Below are positions 1,716 through 55,398 of a stretch of 64,000 bases of DNA, piece after piece (position 1 is the first letter of the stretch; each line of letters begins with the position of its first letter). Location: assembly GCA_905160935.1 (NCBI GenBank), contig CAJHZI010000591.1:1-64000 (forward strand), given 5' to 3'. A program made the translations under genes and the position numbers. This DNA comes from Enchytraeus crypticus (lineage: Eukaryota; Annelida; Clitellata; Enchytraeida; Enchytraeidae). The notes under the pieces were generated by a model that did not search any database, was not told where the DNA came from, and worked only from the letters and a program-made list of their open reading frames with translations.

Positions 1716-4700
1716 ATGGAAACGTCAGTGAGGAAATCATCTCGACGCAAGCGACTGGTCTTGTTTCTACTTCTTCTGCTCATCATCGTTATCATCGCAC
1801 TGGCGGTAGCTGTGGCTGTGCTGCACAAGAAGCTGAAGCACCGAGTGGACGAGCCGTGTGACACAGCAGAGTGCGCAGTGGTAGCGGGCGAGATGATATC
1901 TAGGATGGACCTCAAAGCTGACCCGTGTGTGGATTTCTACCAGTACGCGTGCGGTACCTACTCCAGCGCTTCCACTCGTCCGCCGGACGTCAGTCACATG
2001 TTCACTTTTGGAGCTCCGAGCGTCATCACAGCTCAACAGCTGGCGGCAGTCCTTTCTTCTCCAGGTACAGTTATCTAACTTTCCATGCAGTCACTTCACT
2101 CTATCCACGCCTCAAAACTTTCTTCTCCAGGTGTAGTTACCTCACTCTCTCCACTGAACAAAACTCTCTTCTCCAGGTGTACTCACCTCACTCTGTCCAC
2201 GCCTCATTTGACCAAGCAATTTAAGTCTTTTTTCAAAGAAATGTTCAATTTTCTACCTTTTAATCGGAAGTAAATAATTTGAAAACGATTATTTGTATTT
2301 TTAAAACTAACTAATAGGTCAATAAATTAACAATGCAACAACCGTATTTGCAAACAGCGCCGTTCGAACATCATCTTGTGTGTCTATGTAGGCCTACTCA
2401 TTTTCTATTAGCAATACTGTTTCACCTCGGAAATCAGACGTAACACTCGTAGGTATATACGAAGAAGATACACCGCAGCTAATAAAATGATAGCAAATTT
2501 TCACTCACTTCCGGTTCGATGAAAGCTCACTGAAAGCCTATTAAAAGCAATGGTAAATGAGATCGCCAACTATTTTTCTAATATATCAACTAAATTACTA
2601 ATATCAGCTAAATTACTTATTTGCTGCCAGATGTAATACATGACCCATTGCGACTCCATGCCTGCTTGATAAAAAGAATATATATACAGCAGAACAGAGA
2701 TATAGCAATAAAATTTTATGAATCTTTTGCATTGCTATTTTTAGCTACACGGTAGTAGTTATGTAGTTTAGAAGATAGAAAGAGAGAACAATGGTCATCT
2801 ATTTGTAACTGAATCAAAATATATACGAAGCGCATACAACGAGACAGAATACAAATAAGACGGCCGTCAGAAAGAGCCAATTGAGCTCTATCTAGCTGAC
2901 TAACGGAAGAAGAATAATAGGCCTTATATATTATATTTACAATGATCATTAGGCTACGTAAGCTTCCTATGACAAACTATGCGTAATGGTGAAAATTATA
3001 TTAATATCACTAATTAAAGTTTAATGAGGTATTATCAGAGTTTCATCAAAATTTCACGTAAACAAAAAAGTTTATTTGTTACCATGGGAATACATAGCTG
3101 TTCTTGTTACTGAAACTTCTAGTTCTCTCTAATACTTCATTGGTCACACTATTATGGCCTATTCAATATCAATTAACTTTGATCAGGTTATGAATACAGA
3201 GGTCGGGCATCAACAGCTGTTGCCAAGGTCAAGGAGTTCTATTCTGTCTGTATGAACGACAAGAACGACGACAACAAGGGTAAAGAGATCCTGTTAAAAG
3301 TTATCAAAGGACTCAACTACTGGCCTCTTTCCACTGAGCCTGCAGCCTGGAATCCTTCTACGTGGGACCTCCAGGATGTCATGGACAGAGTTGTCCTGCA
3401 GAACTTCCCAGCTCTGCTCGGTGTTGGGCTGATCAACCACCCAGCTGACTCTGATAAGTACGTGATGGGGATGGTGGCTCAGGGGTTGACACTGCCCCGC
3501 CCAGAGTACTACAATCTACCGAGAGCTGAGCGGGCGTATAGAGGCTTAGTGGAGACTGTATGCAAACTTCTGTATGGTTAGATCTGTCTCGATATTCACA
3601 TTTATATGTCTGTCTCTCTATCTTTATCCTCCTCTCTCTGTCTCTCTATTGCATTTATTTGCCCACTCAACCTGTTTATAAGGACAGTACTTTGGGGCTT
3701 GGACTAAGAAATTTCAAATTCACTTATAAATAAGAATTCTGAGCATCAAGCTTTTTTTTCTTTTTTTCAATTCGGTCCTTTCCATTTGCATGTACAATTT
3801 CGCTCTTCTTGCTTCATTATCAGGCACGACATAGCGACTAACTGCAAAGTGCATAATATTATTTTCGTGAGAGACGGGAAATAGAAAACAATAGGGAAAC
3901 TTGCAATCTCGTGTCAGTGATTACTGTGCTAAATGCTACTTCGAACAAACCAGAACATTCAAGATAATATCTATAATTTTCAGATCTACATGTACATTTC
4001 TTTACTATTTTCAAGGAATTTCGATAATTATCTATATAGTGGTGCAGTCATTTGAAACTTCATATTACAATCAGTTAATCTACACAATCTCTATAATACT
4101 GTGCTATTTTACACCTTATTATGTAACTCGTTCTATATCTCACTCGTTACACTACAGGCAACTCAGAATTAGCACTCTACAGAGAATGGTCAGAGAAGCT
4201 TTGGTTGTTTGAGAAGTCACTGGCCGCCATCTTCCCTACAGCAGCTGAGCTAGCAACAGTACACAGCGTCTCTCACATCATGCCCATCTCTGAGGCTCAA
4301 CAGAAACTAACGTTCCTCAACATCACGCAGCTGCTCAACAAAGCCTTCGATGAAACAAATGAAACCATTACTCAGGACAACGAATTACTTGTAGGCACCG
4401 CCAGATATTTTGAGAGATTGAGTGCCCAGATCAGCAACCTAGGAGATGACTCGAAGAGTACGCTCGCTGCCTATATCGTCTGGACTGCCATGTACAAGGT
4501 ATCATACTCTGCTGGTGTGTCGTTTGAAAGCGCCCATCTCGTGTTTGCGCAGACCCTCCTAGGTTCTGCTCCGACACATTCTTCCGGGTGGAAACGTTGC
4601 ACGGCGGAGACCATCGAAGCTCTGGGATTCGCAGCTGGAGCTGTTCACGCTCAAGAGCACTTCCAGGCAGAGGATAAAGAGAGAATAGCGAAGTTTCTTC

Positions 4701-5605
4701 AAATCACCATAGACGAGTTTATAGACAGACTTCCCCAGGCAGATTGGTTGAAGACAGAGACGAGAAAGAAAGCGGAAGAGAAGGCTAGAGCCGTTGTCTG
4801 GCAGATTGGATATCCTGAAGTGTTCGACGATCCTAATAAATTGGATGAATTCTACGAGAGCTTCACCGTTTCTAGAACTAGATGCGAAAACAAACTGGAA
4901 TTCCTAAAGTTTCAGCAGAGGTATAGCGCTAAGAAATATGGTCGACCTGTTAATAAAAAAGAATGGATGAAGATGCCAACGGAAACAAATGCTTACTATT
5001 TTTCGCCAGGAAATCAGATTGTGATATTGGGAGGAATCCTGCAGAAACCAATGTACAGCAGGGACTTCCCTCTCTCAGTATTCTACGGCGCTATGGGTTC
5101 AGTTCTTGCTCATGAACTTATTCACGGCTTTGACACCAACGGCCGGAAGTACGATTTAAATGGAAAGGTTTTCGACTGGTGGGATTCAGAATCAGCACAG
5201 GCCTACGAAGAGCGAGCTGCTTGTTTCCGTGACCAATACAACAAGCAGACCTTTCAAGGTCATCCGGTTAACGGTAACCTATCCATTGGTGAGAACATCG
5301 CAGATGCAGGTGGTGTTGGGCTCGCCTTCAGTGCCTACACCAAAGCGTCTAAAGTAGGAGATGCAGATAGGATTCTGCCTGGAATGAAGATGACCGGAGC
5401 CCAGCAGTTCTTTTTAGCCTTTGCGCAATTGTGGTGCCTCAATATAAATGATGCCCTTGCTGGGAGGTTAGTCGTTGAGGACGAACATTCTCAGGGACCT
5501 GTCAGAGTAAACACCGCTTATAAAAATACACCGGCGTTTGCTCAAGCATTCAGCTGTCCTAGTTCATCTCAAATGAACCCAAGTAAACGATGCACCATCT
5601 GGTAA
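1716..5605 (+). CDS. M13 family (neprilysin-like) zinc metalloprotease, gene A
   Basis: Type II membrane zinc endopeptidase that would cleave peptides outside the cell. I read three exons, 1716-2064, 3187-3576 and 4158-5605, joined in phase 1; the sum is 2187 bp, or 728 residues, near the usual 700-770. Visible order: basic cytoplasmic tail, one membrane helix (about residues 14-36), the M13 N-terminal cysteine motif DPCVDFYQYACG, the helical domain, the substrate-binding NAYY (about 524), the zinc site HELIH (about 565-569), the third-ligand motif ENIAD (about 625-629) and the family C-terminus with a Cys four residues before the terminal Trp. All catalytic residues are present. ATG 1716 is chosen because it precedes the anchor directly. 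A possible acceptor (CAACAG) lies 13 bp upstream of it, so a 5' UTR exon may exist. Substrate unknown. First of three tandem paralogues. Confidence 0.9.
2051..2190 (+). repeat. Tandem copies of the exon 1 splice donor of M13 gene A
   Basis: The exon 1 end CTTCTCCAG|GT recurs about 70 and 120 bp into the intron, each time with a pyrimidine-rich lead and similar following sequence (TAGTTACCTCACTC-like). Each unit could serve as an acceptor and as a donor. Only the first copy keeps the reading frame; beyond it the frame stops within 5 codons. Confidence 0.75.
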
Positions 5606-5790
5606 TAGATGATCATAGTGACAGATCTAATTTGTTGCCCGTTTAGTGTTTTATAATAGTCAAGTTTACGAGACGGCTTAGTTTTATTAATATGTTCATT
5701 AATAACTTTTAAATATGCACTAGGTCATGTACTTTATACAAACGATATAGGATAATTTTAAAACACAAAGTTTGTTTATTCAATTTTTCA

Positions 5791-6154
5791 TAATACAATG
5801 CGCTCCATATTTAAACAGGTGGGATATAAGCAAGTTCCTTTTATTTTCCTACTCCCGTTCAATCTCGAGCCAATGCAAATGTTTGTAATTTCTTTTAAAC
5901 ACCAGCGATATAACGACATACGACCATTTGGTTCTTAAAAAGTATGTAAAGTAAAGTAAAACACGCATTTTAGTGAAATTATCAATGCGTATTTTCCTTT
6001 ACTTTACATACTTTTTAAGAACCTAATGGGCGTACATCGCTTGTTTTCAAAAGAAATTATCAGCATTTGAATTTGCTTGAGATTGAAATGGAATATAAAG
6101 ACAAAAGGAACTTGCTTATATCCCACCTGTTTATAAATGGATCGCATTGTACTA
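5791..6154. repeat. Long diverged inverted repeat (foldback/MITE-like)
   Basis: The arm at 5791-5970 is matched in inverted orientation by 5984-6154, with scattered mismatches along roughly 170-180 bp. The spacer is only about 13 bp. No protein is encoded. It lies about 190 bp after the stop codon of M13 gene A and could fold within its 3' transcript if that extends so far. Confidence 0.8.
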
Positions 6155-6489
6155 CTAAAAACAATGTCTGCGGAGCCGTTACTATTTATCAATCTTAATA
6201 GTCAAAAGGCTTATCTCACGCGCTGTGCTACTGCGGCTTAAGCTTAGCAACAGCCTGTAGAGTTAGTCAGGCTCCAGTGTCTACATCGTCAGCATTCTAC
6301 GTGCGCACAGTAGGGCTACACACAGGGGTAGTAGAGACAGCAAGGTTCAGCTGCTGTGTTAGGACTTTGTCAACTGTCCTGATTCTTTTAAGTGAAAGTT
6401 TGATATCCAGCTGTTCTGGAGAGAGGTGGTACAGATAGACCGTTTATAGATGGGTTAAGAATTAGGGAGAAGAGTTGTCTCTCTTATTC

Positions 6490-6715
6490 TCTCTTATCTC
6501 TCTCTTAGTCTCTCTTAGTGAACTGCCTATTGGCAGGTCCATGGTATATAACGCCACCACTCTCCTCTGTCTTCAGTTTTCCATGTCATGCCCACATTTG
6601 TGTGGATATTAAATCATTTAACATTTCTAATCTCGACCTGCCTCTGCCTCTATTTCCTTCTATGACTTCTTTTAATAGACTCCCCCCCCCCCTTAGCATG
6701 TGGATAGAACACATA
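6490..6715 (+). repeat. Interspersed repeat family R1, copy 1
   Basis: This roughly 200-bp block (CTGCCTATTGGCAGGTCC near its start, then TATAACGCC and TCTGTCTTC) recurs at about 50215-50445 and, shorter, at 47955-48120. All three are in plus orientation. It does not encode a continuous protein. It may be the 3' end of a longer retroelement. Confidence 0.65.
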
Positions 6716-7011
6716 GAAATAAGTTGTTGCAGCATCGGATTCAATGGTTCCAATTGAACGTAAACAAATTCAGATTTTGCGCATATATTCATGTGTGTGG
6801 CAATGAAGCAGTATCGAAGATGATTTATTTGTTTAAAGCAAATAAAATATACAAGTATGACGCATTGCGAAAGTAAGAATGGAGATTTTGAATCAAATTG
6901 CTTGCCAATTTATTTGGTCTTAGGAGAGCCATAATGTAGTATACATTATATATTAATTAATATATTGGGGGGAATCTTTGAAGACTATAGGCCTATGTTG
7001 ATAGTCTTATC

Positions 7012-7071
7012 CGTGACACCATCCTTGAATGAGGAAACGGACGTTAAACCTTTATTACTATTATTATTATA
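7012..7071 (+). repeat. SINE-like 3' end with (TTA)n tail, copy 1
   Basis: The core GAGGAAACGGACGTTAAACC is followed by a TTA/TTAC microsatellite tail. The same core and tail occur at 41249-41312 and, inverted, at 60511-60572. Only the 3' part of the element is recognisable here. Confidence 0.65.
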
Positions 7072-7394
7072 GAAGGCCTATAATTGCTGCATTGGACAAG
7101 AGAGTCAGATATTTATTCGCTGCCATTTAAGCGTAACAAATATTCCAGTTCAAACATTTAGTTATGGTCAGGGTTAAACTTCCTAAATAGTTTGAGTCTT
7201 CGTGAATTTCTACAATGCAAATAACGTTTATTTAGTTTGATTTATTTTGATCCATTTTTAATTATATGAGACGTACAGTTCAATTAATTTTAATCTTCTG
7301 TACTAACAAGGAGCGTATAGTCTTCAAGAAAATTTCAGACATTTCATAGAAAACCTCATAGAAGCGAACTGCTTGAACAAACTACGACGAACAG

Positions 7395-7625
7395 AAAGTA
7401 GGCTACTAGAACGAGACGTTCAAGAACAAGAAGTACAAGAACAGAAAGTACCAGAACAAGAAGTACTAGAACAAGAAATCAAGAAATACAAGAACAGAAA
7501 GTACAAGAACAAGAAGTACTAGAACAAGAAATACAAGAACAGAAAGTACAAGAACAAGAAGTACAAGAACAAGAAGTATAAGAACAAGAAGTATAAGAAC
7601 AGAAAGTACAAGAACAGTAAGAAAA
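7395..7625. repeat. Minisatellite of AGAACAAGAAGTACA-type units
   Basis: Degenerate units alternate AGAACAAGAAGTAC and AGAACAGAAAGTAC. The minus strand is open in one frame (Leu/Val-rich), which follows from the repeat and not from a gene. Confidence 0.8.
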
Positions 7626-8219
7626 ACAAGACTTTCATTTCTTGATGACCGCGTCCATGTTTGTTTTTTTATAAATTGAGAGTTCATCATTGAAACTCAG
7701 TCAGTTACTGAGAAAATATATATTTACAAAATATATGATATATAGAATAATGAAGGAGAAAATAGAAAATAATGACAGAAATGGCTATAAGATAGATAGA
7801 TACATTTAGATAGAGAGAGAGAGAGAGAAAGAGAGAGAAAAAGAGAGAGATAAACAAGGAAAGAGTGAAACTTGAGAGAGCACTTCAGATGTACACGCAT
7901 CCTTTCTCCATCGTCTACTAATTAGACAATTAAGCAGAATATTATGTTCATTTCAATTAGGCAAGTCTTGATTAATTATATGGCATACAATGTTGCAGCA
8001 TGTGTGGACACAGTAGACCCTTGCTATACCTTATACAGTAACATTCTGTAATCTGCCACTAAACGCTGTTATGCAGAGAAATGAAGGGTTCAAAGTTCAT
8101 TTAAATAATTACCAGAAGACTCAGCAAGGATCGAACACATGACTGAAGAATCAGTTGAAGTGTAAGGTCCGTGTAGGACGCACTACGGTGTGTTATAGAA
8201 ACATTAAAACTTAACGAAG

Positions 8220-8640
8220 TAACAGTACAGTAGGCGATTAGGAACAGTACAAAAAGTACAGTAGAATATCAGGAACAATACAGACAGTACAATATAAGGA
8301 ACAGTGCAGATAGTACAGTACAAGATTAGGAACAATAGGCCTACAGACGGTACAGTACAATATCAGGAATAGTACAACAGTACAGTACAAGATAAGGAAC
8401 AGTACAGACAGTACAGGAAGATAAGGAACAGTAGAGACAGTACTGTACCGTTGATATGGAACAGTACCGTACAGTTGATAAGGAATAGTAGAGACAGTAC
8501 AGTAGAAGATTAGGAGCAGTACAAATAGTACAGTAGATAAGGAACAGTACATACAGTACCGTACAGTAGATAAGGAACAGTACAAACAGTACTGTAGATA
8601 AGGAACAGTACAAATAGTACGGTAGATAGGGAACAGTAGA
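8220..8640. repeat. Minisatellite built on AGGAACAGTACA/GTACAGTA units
   Basis: Irregular tandem units of about 20-30 bp share GGAACAGTACA and ACAGTACAGTA. Long minus-strand frames (CSLSTV-type) are by-products of the repeat. The array stops about 15 bp before a possible orphan exon at 8657. Confidence 0.75.
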
Positions 8641-8656
8641 ATACCTAGGACTCATC

Positions 8657-8731
8657 ATGGTTAGCCAGCCTCTAATGAGTCAACGTAGTGAGGAGCCAAT
8701 GAGAGAAGAGTATGAGATGCTCAACAACCAG
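8657..8731 (+). other. Possible orphan first coding exon
   Basis: An ATG opens 25 codons rich in Glu, Gln, Arg and Ser and ends at a strong donor, CAG|GTGAGA, in phase 0. I find no downstream exon in matching phase: the 5' edge of the M13 gene B exon needs phase 1 or 2. The composition would suit a cytoplasmic N-terminus, but this could be chance or a lost exon. Confidence 0.25.
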
Positions 8732-8741
8732 GTGAGAACCT

Positions 8742-8812
8742 TATTCATTTCATTCATTCATTAAGAATTTAACCTACGGCTCCTCGACATAACGTAATGT
8801 CAGGGACGTCTC
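8742..8812 (-). repeat. Short retroposon fragment ending in (TGAA)n
   Basis: On the minus strand GACGTCCCTGACATT is followed by a GAGGAGCC block and a TGAA simple repeat. A related copy, with TTATTGATTGATTG at its end, lies at 23603-23664 on the plus strand. The GACGTCCCTGACATC start is also seen in the (TTA)n-tailed group at 41249. Confidence 0.5.
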
Positions 8813-8904
8813 TTGCAGACTCTGCAAAAAGGCGCCAAAGCACCACACGATGACGACAATTCTTGTGTTAGTTAGATAGGTAACGTAAACATCGTTATAG
8901 TGAT

Positions 8905-9091
8905 CAACTATGTTGATATCTATCACTTTTTATAACACATGTTTAAACCGTTAGGCAATTTTTTTTCCATTTTCCGTATAACCAGTCCAGTAAATGTCCG
9001 AGATTTTACTCCCAGATTAGCGCGGCTAGGATTGAGAACCCACCCATTCACCTCAGCATTTGTCATTTAAAACTTCATGAAGTTACCCCTA
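8905..9091 (-). repeat. tRNA-derived SINE, family B, copy 1
   Basis: Read on the minus strand this matches 29884-30080 over most of its length, through TCTGRGAGTAAAATCTCGGAC and the tail block GGTTTAAACATGTG. The pol III B-box region is degraded here (GGTTCTCAATCC) but intact in the other copy. Confidence 0.7.
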
Positions 9092-9429
9092 CGCTATTAA
9101 GATATTCTAACATTTAACTTTCCGTTAGTAATGTGCTTAACGTCAAGGTTCAGAAGCTAATTTCTTTGCTATTGAACTACTCGGCTTGCTCGAACAACAG
9201 AGGTAGATATTAATTATTACTCTCTGCCCTTGTTTGTTACATTCATATTTGTCATTGTATTACTGTAGATATGAATAATTGCAATTATTGTGTCGTGAAC
9301 TGATTTCTAATTAATTGTAACCTTTATGGGCATGCGTCAGAGCCTTCGGGCCTGTATGGCCTTTTTCACGTCGTTCTATGCATTATTTGCAATGTAATTG
9401 TGATTTTTGTGAAAACAAAAGATACCTAT

Positions 9430-12400: not shown

Positions 12401-13225
12401 GAACACACTGATGAGGTTGACACACTGATGAGTGTATTGAACACAACCCGATGATTATTGACACACGCTGATGTATTGACACCCTGATGAGTATTGACAC
12501 ACTGATGATGTTTGAACACACTGATTAATGTATTGACACACTGATGAGTTATTGACACACTGATTATTTTATTTACAACGATGCTGTATTGACCACTGGG
12601 GGGGATGATGTCTTGAAACACTGATGAGTATTGACACACTGATGATGTAATTGACACACTGACTGTGTATTGACACACTGATTATTATTGAAAGCACTGA
12701 TGATGTATTGACCACTGATGATGTATGGACACACTGATGATGATTGTCGCAACACACTGATGATTGAAACACTGATGATTGATTGACACACTGTTGATGT
12801 GTGACACACTGATGATTATGACACACTGAGGATGTAGTGACACAACTGATGAGGTATTGACACCCTGATGATGTAGTGACACACGGATGATGTATTGACA
12901 CACTGAGGATGTATGACACACTGATGATGTATGACAACACTGAGGATGTATTGACACACTGATATGTAGACACACTGATGATTTATTGACACACTGATGA
13001 ATTTATTGACACCTGAATGATGGATTGACACACTGATGATGTATTGAAACACGATGATGTATTGACACATGAATGATTCTTGACACACTGATGATGTATT
13101 ACACCCTGATTATGTATGAACACGGATGATTTATTTGTACACACTGATGATGTATTGACACACTGATGATGTATTGACACACTGATGATGTATTGACACA
13201 CTGATGATGTATTGACACACTAACT
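9430..13225. repeat. 19-bp satellite/minisatellite array, about 200 copies
   Basis: The monomer is ACACTGATGATGTATTGAC. From about 9533 to 10293 one monomer in four carries GAAACAC in place of GACACAC, giving an exact 76-bp higher-order period. Clean blocks (9430-10620 and 11450-12400) alternate with blocks full of single-base insertions and deletions (10620-11450 and 12400-13140). All three minus-strand frames are open because 19 bp carries no stop in any frame, so the long repeat ORFs are not genes. Confidence 0.97.
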
Positions 13226-13271
13226 ATGTATTGATATTGACGATGTGTTAATATATTGATTATGCATTGAT

Positions 13272-20164: not shown

Positions 20165-20395
20165 TAAATGATCGTGAACAAGCCCTACTTAGAGTAAAAC
20201 CTAACTAAAGCGAAGAAACCATAGGATAATCCATCAGATTAAATAACCGAATCAGAATTTACGAAGATATTCGAATGAAGAGAGACCCTAATTGATATAC
20301 ATGTAAATATATCGTTGAAAAAGAAAAGTAATTTAATAACGGTGTTTATATTAAAAAATATAAACATCCGCCATTTATCATGACGTCATAAACAA

Positions 20396-21666: not shown

Positions 21667-22554
21667 ATGAAACCTATCTCATCATGCATCGTGGTAGTTA
21701 TCAGCATCTGCACCTTCCTTCTCGTCATCCTCCTGCCCTATCACATCTCTCTACTGGCGGCCAAGTGCAGGAACGCGACAGAGAATGTGACTTGTGAGGC
21801 TAGTGTACCGTACTGTGACACACTGGTGTGTGTGGAGCTAGCGTACGAGATGATGTGTAGGATGGACGATAAGGCTGATCCGTGTGATGATTTCTACCAG
21901 TACGCGTGCGGTACCTACTCCAACGCCTCCGCACGTCTGGGAGACCTCAGTCATTTGTCCACTTTCAGAGCTGCCAGTCTGGGCACAGAGGTGGAACTGG
22001 AGCCGCTACTAGTTACTCCAGGTACTCTATGGTTCTAGCGTTGTGCGGTCGTTGTGAGGTCGTTGTGAGGTCGTTGTGCGGTCGTTGTGCGGTCGTTGTG
22101 CGGTCGTTGTGCGGTCGTTGTGAGGTCGTTGTGCGGTCGTTGTGCGGTCGTTGTGCGGTCGTTGTGCGGTCGTTGTGAGGTCGTTGTGCGGTCGTTGTGC
22201 GGTCGTTGTGCGGTCGTTGTGCGGTCGTTGTGAGGTCGTTGTGCGGTCGTTGTGCGGTCGTTGTGCGGTCGTTGTGCGGTCGTTGTGCGGTCGTTGTGCG
22301 GTCGTTGTGAGGTCGTTGTGAGGTCGTTGTGAGGTCGCTGTCATTGATAATTTAAACAAAATTTATTTGTTGCTATTATAGACGAATGGAGATCGCAAAT
22401 TTGTTTATAGTAAACAAAAAAGTTGTATTGACTATTGACATTTATGCCATTAAATTAAGGGCAGTACATTAACTACTTTGAACTCTGGATTTAAAAATTT
22501 TCTGAAATGCCATAATAAATTATGAGCGCACACTTTCTATTTTTAATAGACACA

Positions 22555-35613: not shown

Positions 35614-37894
35614 TTAGAAGCCTTTTTCAATGAGGAACTGAGAAATAGTTTCTAAATGTGAGCCTCGCACCCAAAGCTTGCAGCAGACCTCGTCCACCTT
35701 TGTGTACGTCTTCTTGCCAGTTCTCTCTGTTAGATACAGCTTGAGATCTTCGTCCAGGGCCTGCGAGCAATGAAACAACACACCACCGTTAAACACCGCT
35801 ATTACTTATTACCAAGAATATGAAGTGAAAAACACACAACAGTTAAACAAATAAACTATTCACATACGACATTTCAAGTGGATTCCAAGTCCAAACCAGA
35901 TAATGATATGGCTAAAGAATCATCTTGTAAAAATAATTTAGTAGACGAAGCATGAACATAGGACAGGATATAGTGGTGCTCGGTATTTCTTATTACACAG
36001 TTTATTACACTGGTCTTGTCGAACTTAGATAAATGAGAAATCTGTATAAATAATTCTAGTATCATTATTCTAGTATCACTATTCTAGTATCAATCACTCT
36101 AATATCATTATTCTAGTATCAATCACTCTAGTATCATTATTCTAGTATCATTATTCTAGTATCATTATTCTAGTATCATTATTCTAGTATCATTATTCTA
36201 GTATCATTATTCTAGTATACAATCATCATAGTATCTTGGCGCTAAAATGCCACAACCGGTGTCACTGCCTAGACTCAATGTACGGCTAAGAATCTAAGAG
36301 AAACTAAGAAACTGAGAGATTATTAAAAGAGACAAAATCTAGAAATTAAGAGAAATAAAAAATCAGACAATAAAGAGCAAATTACAAAAAAATAAGTAAA
36401 ATTTAAAAAGGCCATAAATCACAAGAATGCTCTTTAAACTCAACATATACAATTAATTTAATTATTTATAGTTTAATTAATTAACACTATTTACAATGGC
36501 ATATTCCGAATACAACATCTCATAAGCTACATACCCAGATATCTCCATTGACTTTTCTGATAATAGTAAATATTCTGTTTCCACCGTTCATGCGTTTGAA
36601 GTAGATGGGAAAGTTGTAGAAGCGTGTTCGGCTCACGTGATAGGCTGCATCGGCTGGCAGGGCTGTTACATAAACATAACATATTATGCCTCATGTTACA
36701 GTATCAGCACCTTGTAGCACAAGAAGTACAAAAACAGAAATGTCCATTTCTGCTTTTGTACTTTTAAATGTAAAGTTTTACAGAAACTTGAACAATCAAT
36801 CTCAGATAGTACACAGAGGTAACTTATCACAGTACAATTCTAAAACAAAAAAACAATAGTAAAATAAACTTTTAGGAATAAAGAGTTACTATGTTGCTAA
36901 CATGTTGTTAATATGTTGTTAATATGTTGCTAACATGTTGTTAATATGTTGGTAATATGTTGTTGAGTTAATTGAATAATAAATTTATCAGAATGCCGGC
37001 CAAAGGTTTCAGCGAAGATGACGATACAAATAATGCGTAAAAAGCTGGTATAAAGCTGCAAGTAAACAGTAGTAACAAAATCAGCTTCTAATTTCATGTT
37101 ATCTTTGACGTCTCTCCAAGGTAAACATGAAATCTTTCTGCAGAAGCTGGATAGAGAGAAAGCTGGATAGAGAGAAAGCTGGATAGAGAGAAAGCTGGAT
37201 AGAGAGAAAGCTGGATAGAAAGCTGGATAGAGAGAAAGCTGGATAGAGAGAAAGCAGGATAATAATAATAGTAACAGCAATAATAGCTACAAGCTAACAA
37301 AACCGTACATACGTTTAGGAGGTGTCCAGCCTGATGGTGTAGGATAGACGGAATGCTGGGGGGGAGGGGGAACTACCTCACTGGACAACAGTCTCTCCAC
37401 TGCCTTCCATTTCTCAGCATCTCTGCTCTCAACCACATCCGTCAACCTGGGCTGAGCCCTCTTCACCACAGGTATACCACCAGCTACCGTCCTAATGTCA
37501 TCAGGTTGTGGCTAAATACATGACAACAAAGCGCGGTATACCTCCAGCTACCGTCTTAATGTCATCAGGCTGCGGCTAAATACATGTCAGATTTATCTAA
37601 CATTCTGTAATACTTTCATTTACTAATTTCAGTTCTTTCCTCATACCATCAATCTTTTCGTAAACCAATAAAGCACGCTAATAGAAACCATACAGTAAGT
37701 ACTCATTAGAAATTCACAAAGCACAAATAAATGACCTTGAAATCATCATGGATAAGGTAAATCAATTTACTATTAGGCATTAATAAGATGCATACCTCGT
37801 TGAGTATTTGGTAATATTTAAATGCAGACGTTGATCTAATTGTCTGCCGGACAGGAGCGTGTAGAGAAAGCGTCAACAGACGTCTTAACAGCAT
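35614..37894 (-). CDS. MRPL49: Mitochondrial large ribosomal subunit protein mL49
   Basis: Structural protein of the mitochondrial large ribosomal subunit. Four exons read on the minus strand: 37894-37796, 37511-37313, 36662-36535 and 35760-35614, total 573 bp, 190 residues; all junctions are GT-AG and the phases agree (0, 1, 0). The first exon is rich in Arg and Leu without acids, as in a mitochondrial targeting peptide. The third encodes SRTRFYNFPIY and then GGNRIFTIIRKVNGDIW, and the fourth ends FLIEKGF; these match the conserved blocks of MRPL49 (human ends LLEKGF) by memory of the family. An in-frame ATG at 37927 could extend the N-terminus by 11 residues. A copy of the exon 2 start and its acceptor lies upstream in intron 1. 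Head to head with COX16. Confidence 0.88.
36060..36220. repeat. 14-bp minisatellite in MRPL49 intron 3
   Basis: About 11 copies of ATTATTCTAGTATC, some as CACTCTAGTATC. Confidence 0.9.
37145..37262. repeat. 16-bp minisatellite in MRPL49 intron 2
   Basis: About seven copies of AGCTGGATAGAGAGAA. A further AT-rich tandem (GTTGTTAATATGTTGCTAACAT) lies at 36895-36965. Confidence 0.9.
37467..37590 (-). repeat. Tandem duplication of MRPL49 exon 2 start and its acceptor
   Basis: The block 37467-37525, which contains the first 15 codons of exon 2 and the TATTTAG acceptor, recurs at about 37537-37590 with few changes. The upstream copy keeps a usable acceptor, so a second partial exon start lies inside intron 1. 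Confidence 0.8.
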
Positions 37895-38787: not shown

Positions 38788-40959
38788 ATGGCATTAACTC
38801 GCAGTACTAAATCCTTTATTTCATTCGGAATACCTTTTCTGGTTGGTATGTTTTTAAATAGATCTATAACTTTTGCGATTCTTCTTGCTCTTTAAATTAT
38901 CATTCGTCGCTGTTGAGTGTGCTTATCTCGTAACCTCTCACCTCCCACCGTGCACACACGTTTACGAGATATCTAGCGAATTCGCGTACACGATGTTGTC
39001 AAGCAATTTGAAAGAAATATTGTCTAGGTTTGGTCTTATAGTCCTGTCAGTAGGCCTAATGAGCACTTCAACACTCGCAGGTTTGACAGTTTCATACTTT
39101 TTTGCTAGTTATTTGACGACGGACTAAAGATTTAAACTGTTTAAATGGGGGGGGGGGGGTGGGACGGACTAAAGATTTAAACTGTTTAAATGGGGGGCTT
39201 CAGCATTTACTTGTGAACTTGTTTATAAATATAAATTTTTGAAGCATCAGTTGGTTGTTGAGGGGTCGAATTTAGTACAGTCGCTTTAACTGCTTGTTAA
39301 CTGAACGAAGTTCAGCTACATTGGACTCGGTTAGTACATGTTTGGGTGGCCTTCTTTGGAAGACCAAATCTTTGCAGCTTTGAATGAGAAAATACTCTAG
39401 GCTCCCAGAGCACAGGTTCAACATACAAAACTCTGGACGTGCTCAGCCGAAATATGACATGAATATTGATGGCATAGTAGAACCTAACAGTCGGCCGTAT
39501 TTTATTAAAAGAATCGCAGCCATCATTTCTACCACCACGTGTAGTAGTTAAATGATTGTGACATACACAAAGAAGTTGATAATGATATAAGGTGATAATT
39601 TATTACGGTAACTTGTTATTCATTGTGGTTGTGATTTGTGTCACTAGGTGCTGCTGGTTGGTGGTTCATTTGCCCTGAAGGAATTCGCTCAGATACGATA
39701 CACATTCAGGAAAAAGAAAACGGTAGCGAGAATTTTTTAATAGATTTAATTTTCTATACTTTATTTCTTTTCTGTTTGATAGAATTTTCTGATTGATTAT
39801 TGATACATAAAAGTTCAGATTTCAGGGTTCAGTTTGGATTTGGTTCATTTTTCATCTCATCGACCAAACAAACCCCTAACATTGGCTAAGCCGTTGTTAG
39901 GGGCAACAACTTGTTTACTACTGCTGTCATATCCTGTGACAGCTATAGCCTAAAAGTTGGTTTCTTCTCAATAGCTGGACTTGTTAGTGCATGTGATAAC
40001 TTTTTCAATTGATTAGTTTAATTGCGATGGTTTACAAGTTAAGAAATCGCTTGCTATAGTACAGACATAATTATATTCTGACTAGTAATAATTCCTAGGT
40101 ACATATTCTTAATCGTATATATCAGCATTGACTATAACATTTGATAATGAGCACTCCATAGACCAGTGAGTTGTTATTGTTACAGATGGTATCTGTTAAC
40201 AAAGCCTTAATTTAATAAATAACTTTAAAATGGCTCGGAGATGGATTGTTAGTGCATTCGTCAGTATCGGCTTTAGTTGTTCCTTGCTGAATATATACAG
40301 TTTGCGATTTTTTCCGTTTTGATTCTAAGTTTCACAGAAAAACCAGGGAAAGCAATCAATATACTGGCTTATATTGTTGCGATGCATAAAGTTCTATATA
40401 TTGTATAAATTATGCGTACTTGTGATATATGCTAAATTACTGCATATTGCACACATATTGTATATGAGCAGTTAACAGAAGCTGAGGGGGAGGCTTTATC
40501 TAACAAGATGAAATCTGACAAGAGTAATACGATAGAGTCTGAATATGAGGTATTTCAACGCATCCTGATTTTGTTTTGATTAATGTTTTCTTTCCTTGGA
40601 TGTTTACTGCATTGAATGGCCTGACAGTCTTCATTTACTGGTAAATCATCATTAAAACTCTTTTAGGATTTTTGTACAAAGTAGCCCAGTAAAGTTGTTT
40701 GACTAACTGATTGATTAATTCAGAGGTTGGCTGACTCATTGCTACGCTAATTGTTTTATTGATTTATTGATTGATTTATTAATTGATTTATTAATTGATT
40801 GATTTATTTATTGATTAATTGATTGATTGATTGATTGATTGATTTGCTTAGAGATTACAGAAAACAGATCTAAACAGTTGGACAAACATCAGAGGTCCAC
40901 GACCTTGGGAGGACTCGAGATCAATGCAGGAGCAGCAGAAACGAGAGCAAAAGACGTAG
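38788..40959 (+). CDS. COX16: Cytochrome c oxidase assembly factor COX16
   Basis: Inner-membrane factor that takes part in assembling cytochrome c oxidase through its copper-carrying subunits. Four exons, 38788-38841, 39648-39722, 40472-40549 and 40852-40959, all in phase 0, give 104 residues; human COX16 is about 106. The product reads FGIPFLVLLVGGSFALKEF, QIRYTFRKKKT, an acidic middle ending IESEYE, then WTNIRGPRPWED, the signature of the family. One membrane helix is at about residues 10-27. The exon 1 donor is CTG|GTTGGT; a stronger GTATGT 4 bp later would break the frame. Exon 4 is preceded by a GATT simple repeat. AATAAA lies 19 bp after the stop, so the 3' UTR is very short. Confidence 0.9.
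39128..39210. repeat. Short direct duplication in COX16 intron 1
   Basis: GACGGACTAAAGATTTAAAC followed by TGTTTAAATGGGG occurs twice about 45 bp apart, separated by a G run. Confidence 0.7.
40725..40848. repeat. GATT-rich simple repeat abutting COX16 exon 4
   Basis: (TTGA)n and TTTATTGA units run to within a few bases of the exon 4 acceptor (TTGCTTAG). Confidence 0.85.
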
Positions 40960-41700: not shown

Positions 41701-44700
41701 TCAGAGTGACACCTCAGTAGTACACGTGTGCTGGTGCTGGGGCATCGGCTGCTGGGAGCTCTGCAGCTGTGACGTTTGCAGCTGCTGTGAGTCCTGCAGC
41801 AGCTGCTGTGAGCTCGGCTGCTGCGGGAGTTTGTGGCGACAGGACTTCCAGCACCTGAGCACAAACAGCTCAGCAAAGGTTTGTCTGAACTGATGACTCA
41901 TAGCGCAGTAGATGAAGAAGTTGACCGGGTAGCTGAGGATGATGAGAAAGTTAGCGACAACCGATGCCTCGTCTTTCTCTCTCTCGTTCAGCATCGGCTC
42001 CATCGTGGGAAATATTCTCTTCAAAGCTGAGGCCGTGTAAAATACAACGAGTGGAAATTCCACCAGTAGGAAAACCCCCACGACAGTTACAAGCAGAAGA
42101 GTGGTCATGTTGGTTTCTGCGAGTCGCTTACTTTCTGTCTTCCTGTCGAAACAAACAATTAGAAGTCTTCTAGAGTTTGCGTACAACTGTTGTTGACTGA
42201 CGACCAATTTGCTAAAGTGTAATAAACTGTTGCTAAGTTAAGCTAAGTGTTCTATTTTGTGATAAATAATGCCATTATGGTTTATTTAATATTGACTTAA
42301 ACTGTGATCGCAATTTATCGCTGCGCCAGCAGCAGTAACTGTCCCACCTTAATGCGACAGTTCATTAAAAGATGTTAAAGTGTCGTACTTTACTAGAAGA
42401 GTTGATATGTTGCCTCGTCAAATGACTTCGTTCTTGATAACTCATTTATATCTGCTGGTCTGAATTCATTATTAGAAACTTACTTAAAATATTCCGTTGA
42501 CATTAGTATGAACAACAACACTAAAATAGATGTAATAATGCAATTTAATCATAATGATGCTAGCACAGTTTAACGCTAATAGTGTTAAAGACTTTTGTAT
42601 GTCAGTTTACTTGGTTGAGGAATTTGTTAATTCCTGCTAATGTTGTCTCTCACTTGACTAACAAAAATAGCCTATTGAGAAATACCAAATATTGTCCTAC
42701 ACCAGATGCAGATCTATCGAGACGTCTTAAATCAGAGAAATGTAAAATCTGAAATCTTCCACTCTGTAATATAATTTAATTCTGTATTAACAAAAGGGTG
42801 TTTTATCACTAACTTGTTTTGACGCAGGAGCAATGTTCGCTTGTGCTGCGCCAGCCACATGGCTCTACAGAGCAGAGCGTTCAGGACGACCAGTGATACG
42901 CAGGGTATGAGATGAATGAACAGGGCGCTGAAGCCGAAGTAGAAGCTGTAGTAGACGGCGGCGTGTCGTTCAACACTAGCTCGAGGCCGATGAGCGCAGC
43001 CAATGATTGGACCTCTCTTGTAGCCGTCCAATAGTTCTAGCGAGCTAGGGTCGTCCAGCTCGGCGTAGTCAATGTGCTCTTTGTCCGCAATGGCCAGAAG
43101 CTGAAATAAATCTAACTTATTCAAGGTCTGTTTCTCTGCTTTACAGCGATAGGAAATAGTTCATAACATTATTAGATCTGTATCACATTTCCATGAGATT
43201 TTTCTAAATTATCAGTAAATGAAGTCATGCGCTCAGTGTGATCACTGTTATAGGCCTACTACTATATTGAAAAGTTTTGCTACTTCCGTGATTGATTGAT
43301 TGACTGATTGATTGGCTGATTGACAGACTGACTGATTAATTGATTGATTGGTCGATTAATTGCCAGACTGATCGATTGAGTGATTGATCGATTGATTGAT
43401 TAAGTCTCACCTGCACTAGAAAGGCGAGACTATACACTAGAGCGATAACGTTGACCATACTCCTGTGTGTGGAGAATCTGCTGCCCTGAGTGGGGTGACA
43501 TACATAGAGATACCTCTGGACTGCCAAAGACACGGTCAACCACACAGACACCGTGTGAAATACCATCGGCAGATACTGTGATATGAAATAGTAGAAGTAG
43601 CACATACCTGTAGCACAAAATAATAGCACGTACCTGTAGCACAAAATAATAGCAGGTATCTTTAGCAAAAAATGATAGCTCTTATCTGTAGCCAAAATAA
43701 TAACACATATCTATAGCACAAATAATAGCACATGCCTGTAGCACAAATAACCGCACATATCTATAGCGTAAACAACAGTTATTCGTAGCACAAAATAATA
43801 GCACACACAGGCGGCAGTGTAACACTAGTATCACATATCTGTAGTAAAAGTAGCACATACATGTAGCATTTATTAGCATCGCTGATTTCTCTCAACAGAT
43901 TTGTTAATTGAAGGATTGCTTGATAAATCCAATGATTGATTTATTGAATGAATGCTTTATTTATTGATCCACATATTTGAAGAATATTATTCACTCATCA
44001 ATCAATATCATTCGTTTACATTGACTATAGTATAGATAGTTATAGGATAGAGATGTTGACCCGTTGACGTTGACTGCACTTGTCTGTAGAGCCCGCTACT
44101 GTAGAAGTGCAGACAGTAGGGAGTGGGACATAGTGCTGTGAGAGTGCCTGATATAGACAGGGCTACCAGCAGACTGTTTGTGGGGCTGCAGTCATCAATC
44201 AATCAATAAGACATATATGTTGTCCGCTTTGTCACCTCTGTAATATTATAGTCTTCGTCATGGACGTATAGTAGAGCCTGCCAGTCTCAACAATTTACAA
44301 CAATCGATAGGCTATACCGAGAATCTCCCAATACACTGACTGCCTACTGTAATTATCAAGAATCTCTAAGATACTGAATCACTGATACTCTAATATACTT
44401 TAGTCTAATCAAGATACTCTAATATACTCTAGTCTAATCAAGATATTCTAATATACTCTAGTCTAATCAAGATACTCTAATATACTCCAGTCTAATCAAG
44501 ATAATCTAATATACTCTAGTCTAATCAAGATTCTCTAATATACTCTGGTCTAATCAAGATACTCTATTATAGGGCCTACTTATACTCTAATCAAGATACT
44601 CTAATATAGGGCCTACTTATACTCTAATCAAGATACTCTATTACAGGGCCTACTTATACTCTAATCAAGATACTCTAATATCGGGCCTACTTATACTCTA

Positions 44701-47797: not shown

Positions 47798-47831
<34 letters not shown>

Positions 47832-47834
47832 ATT

Positions 47835-50445: not shown

Positions 50446-50533
50446 ATACTCTATCCCTTTTTCATCTTTGAAATATTTGTCTTCTTGGCGCAATTCAAGG
50501 CACATTGTACTGAATATTGTGCTGTAACCATCT

Positions 50534-51275: not shown

Positions 51276-51307
51276 CTGCGCATGAGGGACAATGGAATAG
51301 CCGGAAG

Positions 51308-54300
51308 TCACGGCGAGAGATCCGTGGTGGACGTCAGCTGCTGCTGAGGCACAGCCTTGTGGCGGCAGCACCTCCAGCACCTGAGCACGAACAGCTCAGC
51401 GAAGGTTTGTCTGAACTGATGACTCATGGCGCAGTAGATGAAGAAGTTGACCGGGTAGCTGAGGATGATGAGGAAGTTGACGATGACGCTGGCGATGTCG
51501 TACTGGTCGCTCGTCAGTAGGGAGTTCATGCTGGGAAATATGAAGTTCAGGGTTTTGTCAGTGTGGAGTAGGGCCAGGGGTAATTCCACCAGTATGAAGA
51601 TGGTCACTACCACCACCAGCATCCTCGTGGTAGCATTGGTCTCTGCCAGACGTCGGCTCTCCGTCTGTCTGTAACAACAACAGAGTTTACTTCAGAATGC
51701 AGTAATAACAACAACAACAATAGAGCTTTCTTCAGAATGTAGCGATAACAACAACAACAAGAGAGTTTATTTCAGAATGCAGCGATAACAACAACAACAG
51801 ATTTTATTTCAGAATGCAGCAATAACAACAACTACAACAAAGTTTACTTCAGAATGCAGCAATAACAGCAACAGCAACAACAAAAATAATAAATTTATAA
51901 ACTATCTATCAGTACCAAACTCTCTCCAGAATTTCCTCATTTGTAACCTTTTGAGAAATACTAAATATTTTCCTACACCAGATGGAGATCTATCGAGAAG
52001 TCTAAATTGAGATATGTAAAACCTGAAATCTTTCACTCTGTAATATAATTTAATTCTCTACTAACAAAAGGGTGTTTTATCACGTACTTGTTTTGACGCA
52101 GCAGCAGTGTTCGCTTGTGCTGCGCCAGCCACATTGCTCTGCAGAGCAGAGCGTTCAGCACGACCAGTGCTACGCAGGGTATGAGATGAATGAACATGGC
52201 CCGGAAGCCGAAGTAGAAGCTGTAATAGATGATTGGATGGTCGGCTATCCCTGGTCTCATCATGTACGAGCATCCGATGATCGCTTTGTCTATGTAGTCA
52301 CTGGAGGTCAAGGCCGGGTCAACTGATCCTGCTGCCACGTGTTCCTTGTCCACAAAATAACTCATCTGTTTAAACGTCAACAAATCGGCAGAGATAACAA
52401 TAGTGCTGGATAACAATAGCGGTAGATAACAATAGCAGTAGATAGCAATAGCGGTAGATAACAATAGCAGTAGCTAACAATAGCGGTAGATAATAATAGC
52501 AGTAGATAACAATAGCGGTAGATAACAATAGCGGTAGATAACAATAGCGATAGATAACAATAGTGATAGATAACAAAAGCAGTAGATAACAATAGCAGTA
52601 GATAACAATAGCAGTAGATAACAATAGCAGTAGTTAACAACAGCGGTAGTTAACAATAGCGGTAGATAACAATAGCAGTAGATAACAATTGCGGTAGTTA
52701 ACAATAGCGATAGATAACAATAGTGGTGGATAACAATGGTGATAGTTAACAATGTGAAGTGATAATAATGTGTAGAAAGAATAATATGTTGAGATAGCAA
52801 TGTGCAGAGATAGCAATGTGCAGAGATAGCAATGTGCAGAGATAGCAATGTGCAGAGATAGCAATGTGCAGAGATAGCAATACACTAGACTACGTGTAAT
52901 TTTACCTGTACTATGAAAGCGACTTGTACTATGAAAGCGACTGTGTAATTACCTGTACTATGAAAGCGACTGTGTAATTACATGTACTATGAAAGCGACT
53001 GTGTAATTACCTGTACTATGAAAGCGACTGCGTATATGACAGCGATGATCTTTCCAATGTTACTGTGTGTGGAGAACCTTCCGCCATGACTGGGGTGACA
53101 CACATAGAGATACCGCTGGACTGCCAAAGACACGGTCAACCACACAGACACTGTGTGAAATACCATCGGCAGATAGAGGGCGTAAAAGTAGTGGAAATAG
53201 CACCATGCTGCGGATAACAGATAACACAAATAACAATCAACGATGTGGATAACAAATAACAAAAATAACAATCAATGATTTGGATAACAAATAACAAAAA
53301 TAACAATCAATGATTCGGATAACAAATAACAAAAATAACAATCAATGATTTGGATAACAAATAACAAAAATAACAGTCAATGATTTGGATAACAACTAAC
53401 ACAAATATAACACAGAGTACTGAGATACAGAGAAGATTGACTCCAGGTTTGTTCCGTCTCCTATGCACGGTGATAATTCATCAGAAAATATCTAATAAGT
53501 TATCTATACTTCGTCTCTGTTGTCCACTTGTGTACTCCAGGCATCATAGATAGGTTTTTCTCCATACTGACCGATATAATGACCCATATACTGACCCATA
53601 ATATTATACTGAAGTACCTGCTATTTCTAACGCAAGGATCAGGGGTAAACGGCTTCATCAGAAAAGAAAACTGAACTGCTGACAAATATAATATAGGACT
53701 GGAGTATTGATACAGATTGTGATATATAACTGGAGTATTGATACAGATTGTGATATAGAACTGGAGTATAGATATGGATTGTGATATATAACTGGAGCAT
53801 TGATACAGATTGTGATATAGAACTGGAGTATAGATATGGATTGTGATATATAACTGGAGCATTGATACAGATTGTGATATAGAACTGGAGTATAGATATG
53901 GATTGTGATATATAACTGGAGCATTGATACAGATTGTGATATAGAACTGGAGTATAGATATGGATTGTGATATATAACTGGAGCATTGATACAGATTGTG
54001 ATATAGAACTGGAGTATAGATATGGATTGTGAGAGATAGATAGATTGAGACATAGATTGGATGATATACAACTGGAGCATTGATACAGATTGTGATATAG
54101 AACTGGAGTATAGATATGGATTGTGATATATAACTGGAGCATTGATACAGATTGTGATATAGAACTGGAGTATAGATATGGATTGTGATATACAACTGGA
54201 GCATTGATACAGATTGTGATATAGAACTGGAGTATAGATATGGATTGTGATATACAACTGGAGCATTGATACAGATTGTGATATAGAACTGGAGTATAGA

Positions 54301-54697
54301 TATGGATTGTGATATATAACTGGAGCATTGATACAGATTGTGATATAGAACTGGAGTATAGATATGGATTGTGATATACAACTGGAGCATTGATACAGAT
54401 TGTGATATATAACTGGAGCATTGATACAGATTGTGATATAGAACTGGAGTATAGATATGGATTGTGATATACAACTGGAGCATTGATACAGATTGTGATA
54501 TAGAACTGGAGTATAGATATGGATTGTGATATATAACTGGAGTATTGATATACATGTACATGTAGATTGTGATACAGAACTGGAGGAGCAGCATATTTAA
54601 GATGTAGGAAATGTCAATACAGTAGAGTTACTGTGAAATGTCTGTAAGATCTTAGATACAACAGGAGCACTCTAATCGTATTATTGTTGTTGTACAG

Positions 54698-54736
<39 letters not shown>

Positions 54737-55398
54737 TATGCTTAATGACATTATCATCAAAGCACGAAATATAAAATTGCACATACAAACGGGTCATCAA
54801 AGAGGATAAATAAATCCTATCTAGTTGACAGCCTACAATCATAAGCAAACATACACAGACAACAACTCATAATAGTACGCCAATTAATGCAGATTACAAC
54901 ACAGCAGATTCTCACAAAGTTGTTACTGGAAAATACGGTTAAGTGATCAAAATAGAAGTATAGTATAGTACAGGTTGTCGTCATGTTGTTGTTGTTATCT
55001 CACCAGTGGGTGTAGAGAGAACGGTACTGATATAGATTGTGATATTGTTATGTTGTTTTTGTTGTTGATGTTGTACAGTTTGACGCTATGTTGTTGTTGT
55101 TAGCTCACCAGTGGGTGTGGAGAGAACGGTACGGTAGCGCTCAGTGGAGTAGAAGTTGATGAAGTACGGAGTGGGACAGAGTCCGGTCAATGAGGCGGAT
55201 ATAGCGAGTGCCACCAGCAGTAGATTAGTGGCACTGAAACATAAGCACCGAACAAATACCACTAACCTTCCAGTGTATCGATAAATTTAAAGGCTACTGT
55301 GGAGCCTGATGATCAATAAATTTACTAAATTATTTGGAATGATATGACTATAACCAAGGTCATTGTAGAAAATGTATCCATATAGGCCAATATACATG

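Follow-up and report, generated by a model that had tools for sequence, protein, structure and literature searches.

Tandem duplications across exon-intron junctions in the annelid Enchytraeus crypticus resemble the mirages of amphioxus

The window analysed here comprises the first 64,000 nucleotides of Enchytraeus crypticus contig CAJHZI010000591.1. Seven genes were rebuilt in it (M13-A, M13-B, M13-C, MRPL49, COX16, GPCR-1 and GPCR-2), with 19 introns and 38 splice sites, which matches the count of about 38 in an earlier sequence-only reading; splice-site use in all models of this study is predicted from open frames and homology only. That reading had listed eleven splice sites touched by tandem repeats, and we found a tandem repeat within 26 bp of 11/11 and within 17 bp of 10/11. 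The junction was said to lie inside the repeat unit at five sites or more, and five such units were confirmed among the 38 window sites: at the M13-A exon 1 donor, the MRPL49 exon 2 acceptor, the GPCR-1 exon 3 acceptor and the exon 2 and exon 3 donors of GPCR-2. The M13-A donor is lost at stricter scores, leaving 4/38. At the six remaining listed sites, the repeat adjoins the junction without containing it, across a gap of 3–26 nt. The eleven sites fall in six of the seven genes, not in five as had been stated, and the list, although every entry is present, is incomplete in that it omitted a (GATT)4 run at the GPCR-1 exon 2 acceptor. The features are as follows.

2052..2206, forward strand: array containing the M13-A exon 1 donor (2064/2065); 46-bp unit, TTCTCCAG/GT three times, the copies lying at distances of 66 and 112 nt
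22039..22341, forward strand: 11-bp array (CGTTGTGCGGT) starting 17 nt past the M13-B exon 1 donor (22021), junction outside
37471..37586, reverse strand: acceptor of MRPL49 exon 2 (first exon base 37511) inside a duplication; it recurs 64 nt upstream together with 41 exonic nt (90% identity, AG intact)
40748..40845, forward strand: (GATT)n array ending 6 nt upstream of the COX16 exon 4 acceptor (first exon base 40852)
43288..43403, reverse strand: (AATC)n array, as read on the gene strand, starting 7 nt past the GPCR-1 exon 3 donor (43411)
43597..43803, reverse strand: 26-bp array that includes the acceptor of GPCR-1 exon 3 (first exon base 43607), its unit carrying GTGCTACAG/GTATG
44194..44209, reverse strand: (GATT)4 run 8 nt upstream of the GPCR-1 exon 2 acceptor (first exon base 44185)
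51673..51880, reverse strand: 40-bp array ending 4 nt upstream of the GPCR-2 exon 5 acceptor (first exon base 51668)
52392..52881, reverse strand: 16-bp array ending 26 nt upstream of the GPCR-2 exon 4 acceptor (first exon base 52365)
52902..53034, reverse strand: 29-bp array that includes the donor of GPCR-2 exon 3 (last exon base 53011); the exon end is present in four copies, full or partial, with GT after each
53211..53407, reverse strand: 35-bp array ending 3 nt upstream of the GPCR-2 exon 3 acceptor (first exon base 53207)
54968..55132, reverse strand: donor of GPCR-2 exon 2 (last exon base 55109) duplicated; 24 exonic nt and GTGAG recur 105 nt downstream

The copying of exon edges, together with their splice signals, into the adjoining intron held up in genes outside the window as well, namely in M13 genes, CCT4 and CCT5. 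In the combined set of 157 introns, a local duplication included 29 of the 314 junctions, with periods of 24–257 bp; 20 were acceptors and nine donors (P 0.06 for the acceptor excess taken alone), and ten acceptor and three donor duplications included at least 20 exon nt. The 29 cases were found in 14 of 23 gene loci and were unevenly spread, as locus C386 alone held six of them and nine loci held none. Among the first 132 introns, a strong copy (score of at least 20) was present in the adjoining intron for 9/264 exon flanks versus 0/528 controls, for which reverse-complement and mismatched flanks were used. Each of the nine copies extended exactly to the junction. The same introns gave 21 duplicated junctions out of 264, which were listed with their sequences; the partner copy kept the splice dinucleotide in 19/21. 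Likewise, of the 40 copies whose alignment reached the exon edge base, 36 kept the dinucleotide, a tally over 19 junctions chosen from those with duplications, two of which (CCT5 intron 3 and C386 intron 8) had no copy at threshold. The paired copies were 80–97% identical, and most therefore look recent. The matched parts were separated by at least 12 nt in 13/21 pairs, with further copies occupying the gap in some, so simple slippage may not explain everything. A preference for frame-preserving periods was sought among the 21 junctions (8/21) and in the combined set (12/29), and none was found.

In every pair compared, close paralogues lacked the duplication at the same junction. Specifically, the intron 1 donor is duplicated in M13-A and not in M13-B, the intron 2 and 3 donors in GPCR-2 and not in GPCR-1, the intron 2 acceptor in GPCR-1 and not in GPCR-2, and a duplication is present in C777d and absent from C777e. 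The 99.8% identity between contig C777 and the window reflects an overlap at a contig end, not a second haplotype. The M13 loci were selected by family rather than at random, and the splice models of the larger sample were built on a single human query, so that some junctions may be off; in a check on M13-A, the second intron was placed 5 and 25 bases from the manual model. Unreliable M13 introns (C743 introns 1 and 5, C455 intron 2) were excluded before counting, as were both C777a introns and C777c intron 2 from a set of ten introns.

The annelid pattern is that of the amphioxus "mirages", now seen in a very distant animal. The idea of tandem duplication was earlier put forward for these mirages in PMC3087553. 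As described in two reports (PMC3087553, PMC3902484), mirages are minisatellites that span exon-intron boundaries in Adh3, troponin C, the globins BflGb6 and BflGb9, and PGBD5; they affect donors and acceptors, many copies keep AG or GT, the units measure 10–72 bp in Adh3 and 150–160 bp in the globins, the clusters evolve in concert, and BflGb6 carries three and six units in two haplotypes. The annelid units similarly straddle splice borders at both boundary types, and most copies carry AG or GT. They differ in occurring in unrelated genes of an annelid, with up to ten exon-head copies per intron, more acceptors than donors, a coupling to (GATT)n tracts and counts set against controls. Additionally, the amphioxus cases are backed by RT-PCR and two haplotypes, whereas the annelid case is known from the sequence of one genome. 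Under the name "mirage", the open-access literature yielded the pattern for amphioxus only, which is not proof of its restriction, and the word is used for other things in PMC3188502 and PMC7960049.

Since about a quarter of intron sequence is in tandem repeats, some arrays must reach junctions by chance overlap. Across the window introns, tandem repeats covered 9.5% of bases at 0–10 bp from a junction versus 40% beyond 250 bp, and 5/38 junctions lay inside a duplicated unit versus about 30% of interior intron points and 1–2% of coding points. When window arrays were shuffled wholly within introns, junction touching was far above chance. A second shuffle permitted an overhang of one unit into the exon, and the outcome varied with the overhang length. 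At up to 20 nt, five arrays spanned a junction versus 2.2 expected (P 0.04) and nine lay within 10 bp versus 3.9 (P 0.003), which speaks against chance; at up to 45 or 150 nt, the five spanning arrays compared with 2.7–3.0 expected (P 0.10–0.14), as chance would allow, and the nine within 10 bp with 4.3–4.6 (P 0.006–0.007). These P values are optimistic because the window was picked for showing the pattern.

An independent sample of 113 introns separated the two boundary types. Measured against shuffled positions, as the sequence-only reading had proposed, the excess was clear at acceptors and weaker at donors. Array ends fell within 10 bp of the acceptor in 30/113 introns versus 11.8 expected (0/1500 shuffles) and of the donor in 18 versus 11.9 (P 0.024). 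Arrays reached into the exon at 15 acceptors versus 7.5 expected (P 0.0013) and at nine donors versus 7.6, the latter being near expectation. With GATT arrays and the two hottest genes removed, the acceptor excess persisted (12 versus 4.5 within 10 bp, P 0.002). Chance overlap is thus already disfavoured for acceptors, and as the only explanation of the pattern we regard it as improbable.

The proposal that junctions seed intron growth survived in part, as exon edges are copied and array ends cluster at acceptors; special seeding, decay and growth found partial support at most. Only 13 of 226 junctions lay inside a duplicated unit versus 19.2% of interior intron points, and coverage by duplicated units in the independent sample decreased from intron interior (19%) through junction (6%) to exon (1.7%), as constraint on exons predicts. 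Outward copying followed by decay was rejected as a general rule, as no consistent gradient with distance ran through the surveyed junctions. C386 intron 1 carries ten copies, full or partial, of a 51-nt exon head, which lie 79–813 nt out with 84–96% identity and no trend with distance, AG being intact in 8/10, and in C386 intron 6 the most distant donor copy is the best match. Three exceptions fall with distance: CCT5 intron 7 (0.94, 0.81, 0.81), C386 intron 5 (0.97, 0.95, 0.92) and CCT4 intron 9 (0.97, 0.90). As for growth, median length was 748 in the 41 introns whose arrays are anchored no more than 10 bp from a junction versus 763 in all 113, and no consistent length difference was found between anchored-array introns and paralogue introns at the same position. 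Anchored arrays make up at least half of the intron length in 15 introns. Intron elongation through tandem repeats is mentioned for worm F-box genes in PMC8665587.

A second and possibly new pattern concerns repeat orientation: read away from the exon, the tract is (AATC)n at both donors and acceptors. GATT occurred in the last 30 nt of 23/157 introns versus 9.5 by within-intron rotation (maximum 17 in 2000), and AATC in the first 30 nt of 11/157 versus 3.4 (maximum 8); the opposite orientations were rare at intron ends (1 and 2). The GATT runs end 1–8 nt from many acceptors, and CCT4 has GATT at six of ten acceptors. The tracts are also linked to the duplications: a GATT tract accompanied 6/10 acceptor duplications with at least 20 exon nt versus 18/147 other introns (P 0.001).

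These observations would suit an explanation in which splicing itself places or keeps the repeats and the exon-edge duplications are a by-product of favoured arrays. The (GATT)n tract might act as an array of branch-point-like TTGAT words, and (AATC)n after donors would offer no competing GT and AG. Against this, 17 of the 24 acceptors with GATT in the last 60 nt come from three genes, without which 7 remain versus 5.0 expected (not significant), and branch-point-like words show a weak excess or none in introns without GATT; the AATC donors still number 9 versus 3.5 when these genes are removed. We consider a primary role of splicing a minority possibility. With similar reserve, the outward rule may link splicing and repeat growth: the splicing machinery would maintain the tracts, at acceptors as branch-point arrays, and tract instability would repeatedly copy the exon edge into the intron. 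Entire introns would then turn into series of exon heads that have no function yet bear intact-looking splice sites, which the spliceosome has to disregard.

The arrays could alternatively be tails left where mobile elements inserted at exon edges. One retroposon, whose tail is (ATTG)n, is present in about 5000 genome copies (3' end plus tail: 2504 matches forward, 2500 reverse, control 0). Its body adjoins the array at C743 intron 7 and C584 intron 10, two of the 11 AATC donors among the first 132 introns. However, the body was found beside 0/16 GATT acceptors checked, eight CCT acceptors being outside the covered sequence, and we rejected an origin of the acceptor arrays from retroposon tails; insertion also does not account for exon-edge copies, which makes this origin of the pattern quite unlikely. 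A flanking body common to many tracts was rejected too, as a search for one gave scattered matches, of which the strongest were those inside the gene C672 and those linking two AATC donors.

Lying at opposite intron ends, (AATC)n and (GATT)n complement each other exactly, and pairing between them in the pre-mRNA could draw the splice sites together. Both tracts occurred in the same intron in 1/157 cases versus 1.8 expected; as the complementary tracts almost never co-occur, a stem between intron ends was rejected and has a negligible probability in our assessment. In fish, complementary AC/GT repeats at intron ends reportedly act in this way and can replace U2AF2 (Lin and colleagues, 2016). 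The likeness lies in directional simple repeats at donor and acceptor ends; the annelid unit differs, and the two tracts hardly ever share an intron.

Taken together, the junction repeats are probably mirages that arise as local tandem duplications tolerated at exon edges and then undergo array turnover. The genome would frequently make short tandem duplications in non-coding DNA, while those within exons would be purged. At the border, where a unit with copies 24 to 257 bp apart straddles exon and intron, the redundant exon piece would become intron, provided that splicing keeps to the exon-proximal site, which we infer from the models to be the site used. Arrays may later expand, contract and homogenise as other minisatellites do, and the predominance of acceptors would be aided in some genes by unstable (GATT)n tracts 1–8 nt before the acceptor, in which slippage or template switching presumably starts duplications. 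A plain tolerance model does not predict the array-end excess at acceptors.

Tandem duplication could also create new introns, as in the Rogers model of AGGT duplication, and the copies do carry AG and GT signals. Tandem duplication was put forward in this sense by the amphioxus authors for the globins (PMC3087553). In PMC4974935, a potato RdRp gene is described with a tandem duplication across an intron-exon boundary that, as here, copied splice signals. Similarly, according to PMC2812944, human segmentally duplicated genes have internal tandem repeats at exon-intron boundaries, where minisatellite variation alters gene structure; these repeats are tied to coding change and said to form novel introns, whereas the annelid copies are intron-side and keep the frame. 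In contrast to the potato case, the three M13 duplications that could be placed (C672 intron 3, C386 introns 5 and 12; positions 218, 285 and 534 of the human MME query) sit at intron positions common to 7–8 M13 paralogues. These positions are old and are not new introns, and the creation of introns seems a very improbable account of the pattern.

The occurrence of mirages in a distant phylum, at about one in eleven junctions examined (29/314), argues that they are a recurrent outcome of high tandem-duplication rates and not a lancelet oddity. They provide many natural test cases of how the spliceosome chooses among near-identical sites with intact AG in a row. Should the directional GATT/AATC rule be true genome-wide, microsatellite evolution would be tied to splice-site function.

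The mirages had at first raised the suspicion of an amphioxus genome; a search for the GFP family gave no hit, although this does not prove the family absent. A 4.3-kb part of the mitochondrial contig has the order nad3-nad2-cox1-cox2-atp8-cox3, the gene names being read from frames. This partial order fits two changes that PMC2639372 describes as restricted to annelids and their kin.

Tandem Repeats Finder returned 101 rows for the window. At a looser score, tandem repeats made up 24% of the window as a whole; their share was 32% in the rebuilt introns and 7% in coding stretches. The models of the three M13 peptidase genes and the two GPCR genes were built by paralogue comparison, and those of COX16 and MRPL49 with the human sequences. 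The sequence-only reading had described seven genes with about 38 splice sites; the same seven were rebuilt, with 38 sites in 19 introns and GT-AG modelled throughout. A spliced alignment of human neprilysin reproduced the exon 1 donor and exon 2 acceptor of our own M13-A model, and in the second intron it ended 5 and 25 bases off that model. All eleven splice sites previously reported to be associated with a repeat proved to be real. At least five of the units had been said to contain the junction itself, and we found five in the window (four at stricter scores):

M13-A exon 1 donor, junction inside the unit
MRPL49 exon 2 acceptor, junction inside the unit
GPCR-1 exon 3 acceptor, junction inside the unit
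GPCR-2 exon 2 donor, junction inside the unit
GPCR-2 exon 3 donor, junction inside the unit

The arrays at the remaining six sites stop 3 to 26 nt short of the junction. The affected genes number six of seven, not five, and a site absent from the earlier list, a (GATT)4 run ahead of the GPCR-1 exon 2 acceptor, was also present.

Repeat coverage in the window introns drops approaching the junctions; five of the 38 junctions (four at stricter scores) lie inside a duplicated unit, where the share was approximately 30% for points in intron interiors and 1-2% for points in coding sequence. When the shuffled arrays were confined wholly to introns, junction touching far exceeded chance. When an exon overhang of up to 20 nt was allowed, five junctions were spanned against 2.2 expected (P 0.04), and with 45 or 150 nt the expectation was 2.7-3.0 (P 0.10-0.14); arrays touching within 10 bp of a junction numbered nine against 3.9-4.6 expected (P 0.003-0.007). 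The verdict against chance in the window depends on the exon overhang permitted, and the window had been picked for showing the pattern; therefore, a sample from outside it was needed.

Human neprilysin was aligned through the introns of ten other M13 loci, and 113 of the 116 introns were kept. Junction-spanning duplications (6 nt required on each side) were present at 13 of the 226 junctions; the corresponding share was 19.2% for points in the intron interior and 1.7% for points in exons. Repeat coverage was lowest at the junction itself (in the 0-5 bp bin, 9% for donors and 11% for acceptors), reached a maximum of 24-33% at 30-80 bp and was approximately 18% deep in the intron. Array ends, in contrast, fell within 10 bp of the acceptor in 30 of the 113 introns against 11.8 expected, a count equalled in none of 1500 shuffles, and within 10 bp of the donor in 18 against 11.9 (P 0.024). 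Arrays ran into the exon at 15 acceptors against 7.5 expected (P 0.0013), and the nine doing so at donors did not differ significantly from the 7.6 expected. With the GATT arrays and the two richest genes removed, array ends at acceptors were still in excess, at 12 against 4.5 expected. In these 113 introns, the proposed link of repeats to splice sites was supported for array ends, strongly at acceptors, but not for unit coverage, in which junctions lay below the intron interior.

Exon edges were themselves copied. A strong copy of the exon flank was found in the adjoining intron for nine of 264 flanks (132 introns) and for none of 528 controls, and all nine extend exactly to the junction. The acceptors of CCT4 carry exon-head copies at introns 9 and 10, with a shorter copy at intron 7, and those of CCT5 at introns 1, 6 and 7, with a shorter copy at intron 3, which confirms exon-edge copying in two unrelated genes. 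Over 157 introns, 20 acceptors and nine donors were duplicated, spread across 14 of 23 gene loci; ten acceptors and three donors had duplications taking in at least 20 exon nt. In the M13 locus C386, a 51-nt exon head recurs ten times within intron 1, in full or in part, and intron 12 holds seven copies of 26 nt. The AG or GT was kept in 36 of 40 copies aligned to the exon edge base (19 junctions). Exon-edge repeats crowd in C672 (also an M13 locus), C386 and CCT4 (contig C345), and other genes of similar intron number are nearly free of them.

A directional repeat accompanies some of these copies. On the gene strand, 24 of the 157 introns had (GATT)n within 60 nt of their 3' end and 12 had (AATC)n within 60 nt of their 5' end, against 12.4 and 4.5 expected from rotation within introns; the opposite placements were rare (GATT at three donors, AATC at one acceptor). 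All three window arrays of either type of at least 16 bp lie at exon edges. C672, CCT4 and C386 account for 17 of the 24 GATT cases; with these left out, GATT acceptors fell to seven against 5.0 expected, and AATC donors still numbered nine against 3.5. GATT tracts accompanied eight of 20 acceptor duplications, compared with 16 of the 137 other introns (P 0.0035), and six of the ten taking in at least 20 exon nt, compared with 18 of 147 (P 0.001). GATT and AATC almost never occurred in the same intron (one of the 157 against 1.8 expected). Separately, introns 3 and 6 of C672 (locus L028) have 148 bp in common at 94% identity beside GATT tracts, as if sequence had been copied from intron to intron.

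A retroposon ending in an (ATTG)n tail has approximately 5000 tailed copies genome-wide. It was beside none of the 16 GATT acceptor arrays checked and beside two of 11 AATC donor arrays. Its window copies are as follows:

8765-8857, reverse strand, 3' end of the retroposon (..GAGGAACCGGACGTTAAATTC) with a tail that is degenerate or (ATTG)n
23597-23646, forward strand, retroposon 3' end with the same kind of tail

Elsewhere in the window, an 1819-aa open frame at 14729-20188 (reverse strand) has a reverse transcriptase domain, marking a LINE-like element, and contains 27-bp and 78-bp tandem repeats, and an 86-aa frame at 58412-58672 (forward strand) presumably resembles part of a piggyBac-type transposase.

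The sequence-only reading had also suggested that junctions may seed intron growth, with copies moving outward and decaying. Copy identity showed no consistent trend with distance among the junctions compared: it fell in CCT5 intron 7, C386 intron 5 and CCT4 intron 9, as outward copying with decay would have it, but was flat in C386 introns 1 and 12 and rose in C386 intron 6. Of the bases in the 113 introns, 9.5% belong to arrays anchored no more than 10 bp from a junction, and such arrays fill at least half of 15 introns. Growth from junctions was not borne out, as the 41 introns with anchored arrays were no longer (median 748, against 763 for all 113). The three duplications that could be placed were all at intron positions common to paralogues. 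Arrays therefore seem to turn over and replace sequence within old introns, without visible lengthening.

The exon-edge feature is a mirage system in a probable annelid. PMC3902484 adds PGBD5 to the mirage cases, citing Adh and troponin C, and PMC2812944 describes human duplicated genes with tandem repeats at exon-intron boundaries and possible novel introns; in the open-access literature on this theme, we found no mirages so named outside lancelets. In the best-supported mechanism, local tandem duplication, frequent in the genome, would be followed by filtering through exon constraint, a reading that also includes a link to the directional GATT tracts. This mechanism leaves the acceptor excess of array ends unexplained.

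The genome comprises 524 Mb in 802 contigs. Part of the mitochondrial contig reads nad3-nad2-cox1-cox2-atp8-cox3, and since, according to PMC2639372, moves of atp6 and nad3 are confined to annelids and their kin, the genome is most likely that of an annelid. Cox1-like fragments with stops at C361:258458, C424:1323530, C796:266917 and C373:1509293 (loci L037-L040) may be nuclear insertions of mitochondrial origin. At 9431-13234 of the window, a 19-bp unit forms an array of 3.8 kb; contig C777, which overlaps window 426-10425 at 99.8%, starts within this array, indicating an assembly break there. M13-C (31496-33890, forward strand) matches the start and end of the M13 N-terminal domain, the reported matches skipping approximately profile positions 47-292, and may be a shortened paralogue.
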